Source: a virus. From it: DNA of 31,571 nucleotides. Under the pieces are notes generated by a model. The model worked only from the letters and a program-made list of their open reading frames with translations, had not been told where the DNA came from and did no database searches. Every line of letters begins with the position of its first letter. Positions within the stretch are counted from its first letter, which is position 1. Position numbers and translations under genes: made by a program. This document shows, in pieces, positions 18,046-22,343 of the stretch. Location: positions 1 through 31,571 of IMG/VR virus record IMGVR_UViG_3300012929_000038; one strand, 5' to 3'.

Positions 18046-19080
18046 GTGAAGTTCATTAAAAGGATTTCACTCTTGTCGATCACGTTGGCGCAGCAAAAAC
18101 AATTAGCAGTTCTATTGCGCAAAGCGGGGGATATCCTTGATTCTCCTGTTGCGACAATTCCACCGATCAACCCGAATCCCGTGCCCATTAACTTGGTTCC
18201 AACTGGTATCAAAGAGCCGTCTTTAAAGCTTGTCTGGCACGACGAATTTGACGGCACCTGGCCCGACCTAAAAAACTGGCGACAGGGTGAACGTGGCAAG
18301 GCAACGGGTAACCATGCTGCCCCCGGCTATCCAGGCAACACGGAAAAGCAGTTCTATCAAGTCGAATCGGTAACCGAACATGACAGCTTTCTTGACCTAA
18401 AAGCATCGAAGCGCACCGTTCAAGTTGTCAAGGTGGGCGAGTCGGATAACCTCAAGAACACGTTTGCCAAGAAGGCAGGGACGGACAACGACCCCGATCT
18501 CTACTACTGGCCCTACTACGAAGGCACGTTCAAATATCAAAGCGGTTGGGCATCGACTGGGCCTGATGATAATGGTTGGTATTCCAACTGGCAGAAGACG
18601 CCATCTCTGCACGAGTTCCTTTATGGCGTCTTTGAGTTTCGAGTCAAATTGCCGAAGGGTAAAGGTTTTTGGCCAGCGATATGGATGCTTCGCAGCGATA
18701 AGGGGGGTAAGGACGAAATAGACGTTTTTGAGATGGTCGATCCTGCTGCCAGAAAACTTGCGTTTCACTACCATTGCGACGCGGTCCCTGATTTCACGAA
18801 TGACCCAGGTCCAGGCAAAGACATGGGCGTCGATCTCAGCGCTGACTTTCACACGGTGGCAGTTGACTGGACCGCTGATTACATCCGTTGGTATTTCGAC
18901 GGCAAACAAGTCAGTACGACCGAGGGCAAGTTAGACAAAGCCAAGATCTGCAAAAGCCCTATGTACATTATTTTCAACCTTGCTATCGGCGGGGACTGGC
19001 CTGGCGACCCAGACAACACGAGCATTTTCCCTCAGTCGATGCTTATTGATTACGCGCGTGTTTGGAATCGGACTGCGTGA
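18046..19080 (+). CDS. glycoside hydrolase family 16 endo-glucanase/depolymerase
   Basis: The enzyme shows the GH16 fold from about residue 62: LVWHDEFDGTWPDLKNW, a substrate-groove strand (FLYGVFEFRVKLPKG), FWPAIWML, and the catalytic motif DEIDVFEM with E224 as nucleophile, D226 and E229 as acid/base (family assignment). Later come DFHTVAVDWTADYIRWYFDG and the final strand MLIDYARVW. GH16 enzymes cleave beta-1,3/1,4-glucans or galactans; the substrate cannot be read here. There is no convincing signal peptide, so it may be virion-bound or released at lysis. A TTG at 18073, preceded by AAAGGA, is a better-supported start than GTG 18046. The stop overlaps the terminase GTG. Confidence 0.9.
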   Translation: MKFIKRISLLSITLAQQKQLAVLLRKAGDILDSPVATIPPINPNPVPINLVPTGIKEPSLKLVWHDEFDGTWPDLKNWRQGERGKATGNHAAPGYPGNTEKQFYQVESVTEHDSFLDLKASKRTVQVVKVGESDNLKNTFAKKAGTDNDPDLYYWPYYEGTFKYQSGWASTGPDDNGWYSNWQKTPSLHEFLYGVFEFRVKLPKGKGFWPAIWMLRSDKGGKDEIDVFEMVDPAARKLAFHYHCDAVPDFTNDPGPGKDMGVDLSADFHTVAVDWTADYIRWYFDGKQVSTTEGKLDKAKICKSPMYIIFNLAIGGDWPGDPDNTSIFPQSMLIDYARVWNRTA

Positions 19081-22000
19081 GCCTTGTTCAACAAGACGAG
19101 TTTCTGGACAAAGTAATCACGCGGCTTTACCCCGGAGAAGACCCTAATGCGTGGAAACCGCTTCCACACCAGATCCCTCCTGACGGCGTACCTGGAGTTG
19201 ATTGGACTCTGTGGCTTCTGGTTGGGGGTCGCGGTTGCGTAGCCCCTTGGACTCGAATTTATGACCCACTGACTGGAATACATACCGAAATTGCAGACCT
19301 TGCTAGTCGGGGGCGGCCTATTACTGTTTTAGGTCTTGGTTTGAACGGCGCAGTTCCCGTGCAAGCGTCGGCCCCTTTTAGGAAAGGGGTAGCGCCCCTC
19401 TGGATGTATGAATTCGATGATGGCATAGAGATCACGACAACAGATCAGCATCGGTTTCTGACACCATTTGGCTGGACTGACGCTTCTGCCATTTCCGTTG
19501 GTTCCCTTGTTGGATGCGCAAGCGACCGTCTTCGGTCCATTTCGGAACGCGGCCCTTTAATGTCGTCCGTAAATGGTCAGCATTACTTTGGAACACGCGC
19601 AGATTATTCTCGGCATTATTCGATGTGTTCCCATCAATATGGTCGACGACTTCATGAGGCAGAAGATGACGTCCAAGTTTGCGTTCCATCACAAGACGAT
19701 GCTCTCGCACGTATCCAGCCTTTGTTGCGTATGGGTGTCCAGGACTTTTTACGAGCCAGTAACCATCATCATCTTGAGTACGACCGCCTTTCCAGAAATA
19801 GTTCTTTTCCATTCGAGCTTTTGCCGGAAGACGGGGAATATCAAGCGCGATCATCCTTCGACGAATTGCTTCTTCTGAATACCCAAGTTGATCGCCGAGT
19901 TCAAGCGTGCTCATGCCCATCGAGGCAAGTTCGCGCAGAGCATTTTCGTCAATCTTGGCGCTGCGAACAACGGATAGCTTTTTCCGCTGGATGGGGGTCT
20001 TCCTCATGCCTCGAAGCTCAATCCCGGCTGCAACCAATACCCGACCAGCTGTTTGTGAACTCACATCGAAGAGCTGAGCAATCGAGCGAAGAGATTCGCC
20101 GTTCGCATACAGACGCTTTGCTTCGGTTATATCGATCTTGTGACGTTGCATTTATGGATGATACTCGATGGCGGCGAGTGGTTGCCATCCGATCACTTGG
20201 TATGTCTGAGTTTTTTGATATGCATGTTCCAGGCGTAAATAGCTATTTAGCTGAAGGGATATGGAACCACAACACTGGTAAGAGCGACGCCTCGGCTAAC
20301 TATCTAAATCGTCATGTTTTGGGTCCACCGTGCGATACACGCGTTCCTGGCGGACACCGCATAAGCATCATCGCGCCAACACAAGGTGACGCTGTTGATT
20401 CGTGTGTGACTGGTCCATCTGGCTTGAAGGCGCATAATCCAGATATTGAAATGCGAACGAAGGCTGGCGGTACATATATCTATTGGCCTAATGGGACGGA
20501 GGGGAAGCTCTTTGGTGCCTTCAGTCCAGAGGACGTTGAACGATTACGTGCTGGCGGGAATCGCTGCCTTGCCGCTGGCACCATGGTTGCCACTTCTGGC
20601 GGGCCTATCCCCATCGAAGACGTTCAGCCAGGGATGTTGGTTTATACCCGCAACGGCTTGCGCCGAGTCTTGAAGGCGGGTCAAACAGGGGTACGGGAAT
20701 GCATTGAGATCACGAACGGGGATTATTCCGTACGGTGTACCCCTGATCACCTTATATGGGCAGGTAAAGAGTGGAAACAGGCGTCTGTGGTCAGTAGGAT
20801 AACCACATGGGACGGCCAGTCATTTCATGGGATGGGAAACGCTGGTATCAGCGTAAAGATGGGTACTTCGGCAATAGTCGACATGGACTCTTACACCGCG
20901 CAATTTACGCAAGCGCCCATGGACCCATCGCTCCCGGTATCCAAATCCACCACCTTGATCACGACAAAACAAATAACGCTCTCGCGAATCTTGCCCCTCG
21001 GACAGCGGCCACTCACTGGGCAGAGCATCAAGACGAAAGGGGCGCTGACTGGCATAGCAAGGGCGGTAAAGCGGCTGCTGCGAAAAGACTGTATGCCGAA
21101 CGACAATGTGACCTTTGTGGATCGACATACATGGCAGGTGCCTCTAGCAGCAAGTATTGCTCCGCCCGTTGCCGAGATAATGGGGCTCCATCACGAGCGA
21201 AATGCCAACGGCTGTGCATCGTGTGCGACTTACGGTTCGAAACCTCTTGTCGGCGACCGTCCGGCACTTGCAGTTACGCGTGTCGAGCGTGGCACATCGC
21301 AAGTATTAAGCGCGCCCGAGCCAGTTTACGATCTTCTGGTTGAGCATGACCACGAGTTTTTTGCTAATGGCATCCTGGTTGCTAATTGCTGCATCTGGGT
21401 CGAAGAGCTTGCGGCCTGGAGACAGTTGGCCAAGGCATGGCCACATATGAAGTTCGGCTTGCGTGTGGGTCCGCATCCTCATGTGATTGGTTCATCAACG
21501 CCAAAGCCTCGGAAGTTTTTTGTTAATCTCACCATAGATAAACACACGGTGACCACTCACGGCACTACTGACGACAACCCATATCTAGCGGCATCGGTGC
21601 GTGAAGCGCTTTATGACACATACGGAGGAACAAGTCTCGGAGCGCAGGAGCTGGGCGGCAAGATCATCTCAGGCGTCAAGGGTGCAATAACCACCCTTGA
21701 CGCCCTTGACGAGGTGCGAGTGTTTGAGCACCCAGAGTTGAGCCAACGGATTGTGATGATCGATCCGGCCATGACGTTCACTGAAGATTCCGACGAAACC
21801 GGTATTACCGTTCAGGGTAGGGCGGGTGACCATGTTTATTTACTTGCTGATTTATCTGAACGACTGCCAGTCGACGACGACGAAAACAAGGGAACCGATG
21901 GATGGGCGACCAAAGCAATCAAAGCTGCTATCACGTGGGAATGCGGAATGGTTTGGTATGAGGCAAATCAAGGTTCGGACACAAACAAGGTTGTACTCAA

Positions 22001-22343
22001 GTCAGCATTGAAACGATATAACGAATTAAACAATGTGCATCATATGGTTCGCATTGAAGGACTGTCAGCAAGTCTTTCAAAGTACGATCGGGCGCTGGCG
22101 TTGCAACAAGGGATTAGTCAAGGTAAATGGCATCCGGTCGGAGTGTTTGAGAAGCTAGAAGAGCAATTAACGAATTGGACTCCTGAGGCAGAAGCCGACG
22201 ATGAGACGAGCGATAAGAAGAACAAAAAAGACAAATCACCTGACAGACTTGATGCTGCCGTTCACGGCTACAGAAAGCTCATGGGCATTGGCGGCGTCGG
22301 TAAAACTTCAGGCAGACAGATCGCTAATGCCCGACTTGGCTAA
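19077..22343 (+). CDS. terL: terminase large subunit interrupted by two inteins
   Basis: GTG 19077 overlaps the GH16 stop as GTGA. The 1088-residue precursor should splice to about 468 residues. Extein motifs: the Walker A loop GGRG/TGKSDASA, split by intein 1 (residues 54-399); GGNR/CCIWVEELAAW, the Walker B-like segment, entered by intein 2 (residues 497-770); the coupling segment GSSTPKP; and the RNase H-like nuclease residues in MIDPAMTFTEDSDETG, MVWYEANQGSD and PDRLDAAVHG. TerL is the ATP-driven motor and nuclease that packages DNA into the prohead through the portal. Both inteins sit in ATPase-site motifs and must be removed for activity. Confidence 0.95.
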   Translation: MSLVQQDEFLDKVITRLYPGEDPNAWKPLPHQIPPDGVPGVDWTLWLLVGGRGCVAPWTRIYDPLTGIHTEIADLASRGRPITVLGLGLNGAVPVQASAPFRKGVAPLWMYEFDDGIEITTTDQHRFLTPFGWTDASAISVGSLVGCASDRLRSISERGPLMSSVNGQHYFGTRADYSRHYSMCSHQYGRRLHEAEDDVQVCVPSQDDALARIQPLLRMGVQDFLRASNHHHLEYDRLSRNSSFPFELLPEDGEYQARSSFDELLLLNTQVDRRVQACSCPSRQVRAEHFRQSWRCEQRIAFSAGWGSSSCLEAQSRLQPIPDQLFVNSHRRAEQSSEEIRRSHTDALLRLYRSCDVAFMDDTRWRRVVAIRSLGMSEFFDMHVPGVNSYLAEGIWNHNTGKSDASANYLNRHVLGPPCDTRVPGGHRISIIAPTQGDAVDSCVTGPSGLKAHNPDIEMRTKAGGTYIYWPNGTEGKLFGAFSPEDVERLRAGGNRCLAAGTMVATSGGPIPIEDVQPGMLVYTRNGLRRVLKAGQTGVRECIEITNGDYSVRCTPDHLIWAGKEWKQASVVSRITTWDGQSFHGMGNAGISVKMGTSAIVDMDSYTAQFTQAPMDPSLPVSKSTTLITTKQITLSRILPLGQRPLTGQSIKTKGALTGIARAVKRLLRKDCMPNDNVTFVDRHTWQVPLAASIAPPVAEIMGLHHERNANGCASCATYGSKPLVGDRPALAVTRVERGTSQVLSAPEPVYDLLVEHDHEFFANGILVANCCIWVEELAAWRQLAKAWPHMKFGLRVGPHPHVIGSSTPKPRKFFVNLTIDKHTVTTHGTTDDNPYLAASVREALYDTYGGTSLGAQELGGKIISGVKGAITTLDALDEVRVFEHPELSQRIVMIDPAMTFTEDSDETGITVQGRAGDHVYLLADLSERLPVDDDENKGTDGWATKAIKAAITWECGMVWYEANQGSDTNKVVLKSALKRYNELNNVHHMVRIEGLSASLSKYDRALALQQGISQGKWHPVGVFEKLEEQLTNWTPEAEADDETSDKKNKKDKSPDRLDAAVHGYRKLMGIGGVGKTSGRQIANARLG
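19236..20273 (+). mobile_element. intein 1 in the TerL Walker A loop (346 aa)
   Basis: The intein begins with Cys (CVAPWTRIYDPLTG, block A). Block B is TTDQHRF, with the T-x-x-H residues at 19440-19451. It ends with block F/G SEFFDMHVPGVNSYLAEG then IWNHN, followed by +1 Thr. These are the residues of a class 1 intein: Cys1, block B His, terminal His-Asn. The insertion separates GGRG from TGKS in the P-loop. The part between block B and block F, where an endonuclease domain would normally be, reads as an unusual His/Ser/Arg-rich sequence with no LAGLIDADG or HNH motif in this frame, but contains an HNH gene on the other strand. Confidence 0.9.
19432..20151 (-). CDS. HNH homing endonuclease encoded antisense inside intein 1
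   Basis: This 239-residue minus-strand frame has a complete domain order. Two HTH units come first: ITEAKRLYANGESLRSIAQL with FDVSSQTAGRVLVAAGI, then DENALRELASMGMSTLELG with YSEEAIRRRMIALDI. The HNH domain follows: GYVREHRLVMERKLGRHLLP (H151), then EVVDHIDGNTSNNAENNLRV (H171, N175, N184). HNH enzymes cut DNA with one metal ion, and HTH-HNH layouts are typical of phage homing endonucleases. The frame fills the gap between block B and block F, stopping at 19432-19434 just before the block B Thr. The start ATG 20149-20151 has a weak ribosome site; a TATCAT sequence (20163-20158 on this strand) could be a -10 box. Confidence 0.85.
   Translation of the reverse strand: MQRHKIDITEAKRLYANGESLRSIAQLFDVSSQTAGRVLVAAGIELRGMRKTPIQRKKLSVVRSAKIDENALRELASMGMSTLELGDQLGYSEEAIRRRMIALDIPRLPAKARMEKNYFWKGGRTQDDDGYWLVKSPGHPYATKAGYVREHRLVMERKLGRHLLPHEVVDHIDGNTSNNAENNLRVFQSNADHLRTTLKGRVPKWTEDGRLRIQQGNQRKWQKRQSSQMVSETDADLLS
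20565..21386 (+). mobile_element. intein 2 before the TerL Walker B-like segment (274 aa)
   Basis: The intein starts CLAAGTMVATSGGPIPIED (block A). Block B is CTPDHLIW, with T-x-x-H at 20739-20750. It ends VYDLLVEHDHEFFANG then ILVAN, followed by +1 Cys. The penultimate residue is Ala where most inteins have His. It interrupts GGNR/CCIWVEEL. The interior in the terminase frame is Thr/Ser/Ile-rich (SKSTTLITTKQITLSRI) and lacks an endonuclease motif, whereas the +2 frame encodes an HNH protein. It is smaller than intein 1 and not obviously derived from it. Confidence 0.9.
20807..21343 (+). CDS. HNH endonuclease encoded out of frame inside intein 2
   Basis: ATG 20807 has AGGA (20796-20799) seven bases upstream, so it can be translated on its own from the terminase mRNA. 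The 178-residue product has VISWDGKRWYQRKDGYFG and the HNH core LLHRAIYASAHGP (H30), GIQIHHLDHDKTNNALANL (H48, H49, N56, N57, N61). Two four-Cys zinc fingers follow: C101, C104, C118, C122 and C137, C140, C155, C159. It begins 57 bases after intein block B and its TGA (21341-21343) lies within block F, so it occupies the usual endonuclease slot in a frame different from the intein. Such enzymes nick or cut the empty target site to start homing. Confidence 0.88.
   Translation: MGRPVISWDGKRWYQRKDGYFGNSRHGLLHRAIYASAHGPIAPGIQIHHLDHDKTNNALANLAPRTAATHWAEHQDERGADWHSKGGKAAAAKRLYAERQCDLCGSTYMAGASSSKYCSARCRDNGAPSRAKCQRLCIVCDLRFETSCRRPSGTCSYACRAWHIASIKRARASLRSSG

Follow-up and report, generated by a model that had tools for sequence, protein, structure and literature searches.

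A conserved HNH endonuclease gene lies antisense within a phage terminase intein

Results

A terminase gene with two inteins

The window analysed here, the whole of a 31.6-kb virus record (31,571 nt), encodes on its plus strand a terminase (TerL) precursor of 1093 residues (19062–22343), a continuous open frame that includes two inteins. With both inteins taken out, the exteins are identical at 192 of 390 positions (49%) to the intein-free TerL of Streptomyces phage OnionKnight and are collinear with it across both intein sites, so that excising the inteins exactly gives back a conserved host protein. The start of the terminase frame is overlapped by the gene immediately upstream, which encodes a glycosyl hydrolase family 16 protein (18046–19080, plus strand; Pfam E = 6e-23). 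Elsewhere in the window, a Band 7/SPFH-domain protein, here in a phage, is encoded at 1344–2264 of the plus strand (Pfam E = 1e-12).

Intein 1 (346 residues; 19236–20273, plus strand) is inserted in the Walker A motif (GGRG/Cys1 ... His-Asn/Thr-Gly-Lys-Ser, slashes marking the intein ends). It has the intein hallmarks of Cys1, a block B histidine and a C-terminal His-Asn followed by Thr; C1, H72, H345 and N346 are invariant in 25 intein sequences. Pfam matches of the plus frame are Intein_splicing (2e-13) and Terminase_6C. The intein, modelled with AlphaFold2, comprises (i) an N-terminal Hint segment (residues 1–97; 19236–19526), predicted with pLDDT mostly above 90; (ii) a pass-through interior (19527–20162) that is open, mostly disordered by prediction (pLDDT below 50 at residues about 100–267) and relaxed at the protein level in relatives; and (iii) a C-terminal Hint segment with blocks F and G and the His-Asn end (20163–20273), of which residues 310–346 again have pLDDT mostly above 90. 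The Hint fold was recovered by profile search (E to 6e-21), and Foldseek matched the model to the Mtu RecA intein (E = 6.5e-8) and to DnaB inteins.

Intein 2 (274 residues; 20565–21386, plus strand; AGGNR/Cys1 ... Ala-Asn/Cys) lies just before Walker B. It contains a second HNH gene of 178 codons (20807–21343), which is on the same strand and out of frame and has AGGA 7 nt before its ATG. The same arrangement with the same frame offset is present in Rhodobacteraceae phage LS06-2018-MD07. In the terminase region of Vibrio phage 1.245.O, the second intein frame stops; an HNH gene comes next, and after it, in another frame, the intein C-terminal part and the end of the terminase. Judged from its sequence, this locus resembles a fractured gene that holds a split intein.

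An HNH endonuclease gene on the opposite strand of intein 1

Antisense inside intein 1 is a gene of 239 codons (19432–20151, minus strand) for an HTH-HTH-HNH endonuclease. The initial annotation had described this frame as carrying two HTH units and a complete HNH core, and Pfam and PHROGs searches bear this out: the product matches HNH_3 (E = 1e-7) with its HNH core at residues 150–186, HTH families at about residues 8–38 and 78–102, and HNH families of PHROGs down to E = 5e-30. It thus combines, as homing endonucleases do, an HNH catalytic core with a DNA-binding part. The annotation was also right that the terminase frame stays open across the antisense gene and shows no endonuclease motif; a Pfam search of the plus frame in the window found no endonuclease domain, and we rejected a plus-strand endonuclease. 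The antisense gene had further been said to fill exactly the space between intein blocks B and F. The fit at block B is not exact: some 95 nt of the predicted Hint N-domain face the 3′ end of the gene, and its start is separated from the Hint C-segment by about 12 nt. The first codon position of the HNH gene is opposite the first position of the intein codon, the second opposite the third and the third opposite the second.

AlphaFold2 predicted the antisense protein with a mean pLDDT of 87 and a pTM of 0.47. Whole-chain Foldseek matches of this model were weak (best E = 0.07, with a probability of 0.99 for I-HmuI), which probably reflects the uncertain domain arrangement indicated by the pTM. 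A profile search of the PDB found I-HmuI as well; among solved structures, this enzyme is a relative of the antisense HNH protein in both sequence and fold. For each of the two AlphaFold2 models, one row derived from a phage database record was omitted from the input.

The antisense arrangement is conserved among intein relatives

The whole TerL precursor used as a query found no matches among viral contigs; the HNH protein and the intein were therefore searched separately. The HNH protein query yielded 12 viral contigs, the HNH alignment yielded 277 relatives, the best 80 of which were fetched, and 7 bacterial contigs were also obtained. Plasmids gave weak and partial HNH matches only. In 100 of the 102 fetched HNH relatives, including the best 80 of the 277, the HNH gene is antisense in one long open frame of a P-loop intein, in the same register. 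In the intein-sequence search, antisense HNH genes were scored by tblastn with 36 HNH proteins, since a regular-expression intein classifier had missed many loci. Antisense HNH sequence was present in 146 of 159 intein relatives (in one only as a fossil), and its register was identical in every long covering frame. The other 13 had no HNH (12 were classed as mini-inteins of 130–140 residues and one could not be parsed), and no in-frame endonuclease was found among the 159. The opposite pattern, a conserved plus-strand interior facing a regularly broken minus-strand frame, was not seen. In a single contig, L037/L127, the intein frame is broken, which counts against our main reading. Pooling both sets and merging near-copies left 127 distinct antisense HNH sequences. 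The initial observation is confirmed, and the arrangement reaches well beyond the single case first noticed.

Among the host genes looked at are members of several terminase families, two SNF2 helicases and an AAA_24 ATPase, with insertion at the P-loop/Walker A. Cultured carriers are the Pectobacterium phages Taid, Ymer, Sabo and Amona and their relatives, Pseudoalteromonas phage PHS3 and a prophage of Escherichia coli MEI003. In an HNH tree built from few columns and with long branches, nearly all antisense members fall into three clades. The clade of the window's HNH contains L023, L027, L107, the two helicase loci (L025 and L026) and the AAA_24 locus (L029). The antisense arrangement may have arisen only once, although the tree does not show this.

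This distribution bears on the alternative that the HNH protein is real and expressed and yet serves mainly to cut competitor phage genomes or to aid packaging, not intein homing. Most copies are in terminase genes, free-standing HNH genes adjoin terL in some phages, and a packaging role has been mentioned for certain HNH proteins whose genes are neighbours of terminase genes (PMC11855218). By contrast, the helicase and ATPase copies are likewise always at Walker A, and related mini-inteins persist without an HNH gene. We consider this alternative unlikely.

The nuclease frame is constrained and the intein frame is kept open

Substitution rates by codon position were compared in 16 related locus pairs. 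In the exteins and splicing segments, the third position of the TerL frame was the fastest (0.34–0.53). Inside the HNH gene, the second position of the TerL/intein frame, which is the third position of the HNH frame, was the fastest (0.31), whereas the third intein position was slow (0.10). A 30-nt profile placed the switch near the HNH borders. Because the rates flip over the HNH gene, it is the nuclease frame that is constrained at the protein level there, and on this sequence evidence it is under purifying selection across divergent loci. Between the window and its nearest relative, L023, the HNH proteins are 54% identical and the intein-frame interiors 20%, and the HNH differences by codon position are 0.37, 0.34 and 0.68. 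Across the locus comparisons, the intein-frame interior is 16–31% identical where the HNH protein is 35–63% identical. An antisense HNH frame that is kept while the plus-strand interior drifts, the pattern expected if the endonuclease slot is overprinted on the opposite strand, was thus found both in the 16 pairs and between the window and L023; together with the fixed register of the relatives, it supports the overprinting proposed in the initial annotation.

Antisense open frames are common in coding DNA, and the minus-strand frame might on that ground be a chance by-product of a plus-strand interior that alone is functional. The codon-position test refutes this reading, and it is equally at odds with the strength of the HNH homology, the register fixed in all loci, the faster drift of the interior and the predicted folds, which are confident on the minus strand and poor on the plus strand. 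We give it practically no credence.

The copies of PHS3, the Pectobacterium phages and enterobacteria form a long subtype, in which the nuclease C-terminus, a conserved region, runs on opposite intein blocks A–B; the window represents a short subtype. In the long subtype (L007, L042, L103 and others), all three codon positions are slow (about 0.02–0.17) at intein nucleotides 60–240, the pattern that constraint on both proteins would give. This slow stretch could be taken to mean that a functional domain has gone unrecognised in the plus-strand interior and that both strands encode folded proteins throughout. Nucleotides 60–240, however, are the Hint N-domain itself, and the interior proper is fast at the second intein position and predicted to be disordered, which makes such a reading very improbable.

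The intein frame is nevertheless kept open. When the HNH protein of the window is re-encoded with synonymous codons, 7–9 stops appear in the intein frame, compared with none in the actual sequence, and none of 5000 shuffles was free of stops. Over 72 genes, 415 stops would be expected in the intein register from synonymous shuffling within each gene, and 1 was seen; in the other two antisense registers, stops number 537 and 661, where shuffling predicts 537 and 599. The purging of stops from this one register indicates that the intein frame is selected to be read through.

Expression signals on the antisense strand

Shine-Dalgarno sequences of at least 5 nt precede 44% of HNH starts and 5% of internal ATGs (p = 2e-11). 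Of 73 copies, 28 (38%) have a sigma-70-like promoter no more than 85 nt upstream, compared with 5% in shuffles, and 27 of the 28 were confirmed to lie inside the intein; in L007, L009, L010 and PHS3, for example, TTGACA-17-GATAAT stands 31 nt ahead of the ATG. The best promoter scores exceed those of both antisense-TerL control windows and shuffles. The initial suggestion that the nuclease is expressed apart from the intein is therefore favoured by signals in many relatives, but not by the window's own copy: its HNH start has no Shine-Dalgarno sequence and, in a sigma-70 scan of the window, no good match, so the case for its expression rests on the relatives. A −10-like hexamer, TATCAT (20158–20163, minus strand), ends 6 nt before the HNH ATG, and TAGAAT stands at the same spacing in L023 and L107, although these two are homologous to the window and are not independent evidence. 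A leaderless start of the window's HNH gene is possible, the hexamer being suggestive only, and the TANNNT pattern holds only in the window, L023 and L107.

Empty, full and decayed forms of the element

The gene lies inside the element that it would mobilise, and element-free alleles occur in relatives, as expected of a homing endonuclease. The terminase of E. coli ET729 is the empty form of the gene that carries the full element in E. coli MEI003, and that of OnionKnight is likewise intein-free. Decayed forms are also represented: L206 has an HNH gene broken by an internal stop in an intact intein frame, L175 is a 154-residue mini-intein with a 34-residue HNH fossil, and L170, L173 and L183 are mini-inteins without HNH. 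Empty sites, broken and fossil HNH genes and mini-inteins together make up the full set of stages of a putative homing cycle. Between L071 and L103, 40 of 306 HNH third positions differ, compared with 244 of 402 TerL third positions; the element is less diverged than its terminase, which points to transfer, although its low divergence comes partly from the double constraint.

The broken and fossil copies, and the missing Shine-Dalgarno sequence in the window, would fit a nuclease gene that is a decaying passenger, by now functionless in most copies. We regard this as improbable, given the purifying selection on the HNH frame across divergent loci and catalytic residues that are invariant or nearly so across relatives.

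Discussion

Very probably, intein 1 is mobile, and its homing endonuclease is made from an independent gene on the opposite strand instead of forming a domain of the intein. The two frames, their fixed register, the constraint on the HNH frame, the purged stops, the predicted folds, the empty sites and the stages of decay were computed here, and from them we infer splicing, cleavage, homing and transcription. The antisense gene would take the place that in-frame endonuclease domains usually occupy in the Hint fold, between blocks B and F, and the sense-strand interior would be a merely tolerated disordered loop, which we propose is kept free of stops because TerL must be translated and the intein spliced out. 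Where a co-infecting phage or a prophage has a terminase, or another phage ATPase, that lacks the intein, its P-loop DNA would be cut by the HNH protein, and the repair would carry over both the intein and the antisense gene within it. More tentatively, and with a little more doubt than belief, we suggest that these loci are mobile elements of a separate class: the same stretch of DNA would be an intein on one strand and, on the other, an autonomous homing endonuclease gene equipped with a promoter and a ribosome site of its own. The nuclease might then be made early or in the prophage and the intein late with the packaging motor; the antisense transcript might restrain terL; and in the long subtype both strands would truly code for functional domains, one strand for the splicing domain of the intein and the other for the C-terminal domain of the nuclease.

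The arrangement offers a clean and conserved overlap of sense and antisense protein-coding genes, with mini-inteins, empty sites and decayed copies as natural controls, and, since some copies bear promoters, separate expression can be tested directly in cultured phages. It also explains mis-annotation of terminases, which is probably frequent where such an intein is present. In E. coli MEI003, it is the antisense HNH that is annotated at the N-terminal part of the terminase, which is entered as a pseudogene lacking that part; in PHS3, the antisense HNH is likewise retained and TerL is annotated as truncated; and in the Pectobacterium phages, the antisense HNH is unannotated.

Among known systems, inteins with a nested in-frame endonuclease of the LAGLIDADG or HNH type share with intein 1 the Hint fold, Cys1, the block B histidine, the C-terminal His-Asn, insertion at P-loops, the endonuclease slot between blocks B and F, and mini-intein derivatives. 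Endonuclease domains occupy one conserved place in inteins (PMC6801210), and an HNH-type endonuclease in an intein is attributed to Dalgaard et al. 1997, as cited in PMC5050341. Intein 1 was not assigned to this group because its HNH is antisense, a separate gene opposite a sense interior predicted to be disordered. The mycobacteriophage terminase inteins, surveyed at the P-loop in PMC5050341, resemble the present inteins in their TerL host and their Walker A and Walker B sites; a text search of that survey found no mention of antisense nuclease genes. In the insertions called the ShiLan domain and Pacc40 (PMC11855218), an HNH gene is also out of frame with a host gene that stays open, and the ShiLan HNH is a distant relative of the window's (44% over 82 residues). 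Those insertions, however, are on the same strand, in methylase genes of mycobacteriophages and without an intein or splicing domain, so that intein 1 is not of this type; their translation is discussed as unresolved in PMC11855218. In the open PMC set, nothing was found that describes an endonuclease gene lying antisense in an intein. The architecture is apparently undescribed, the searchable literature containing only the same-strand, out-of-frame HNH without an intein.

I-HmuI and other intron-encoded HNH enzymes share the HNH core and are likewise made as separate proteins from genes that a splicing element carries, but open frames in introns do not have to share their codons with a frame that is translated. 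Fractured genes, in which a free-standing endonuclease lies between the halves of a split intein, were reportedly described by Dassa et al. in 2009. They too uncouple the endonuclease from the splicing polypeptide, whereas intein 1 is one continuous frame, for which a split intein was rejected, and its nuclease gene overlaps it antisense. Here splicing and homing, which together make up a classic selfish element, are divided between opposite strands.
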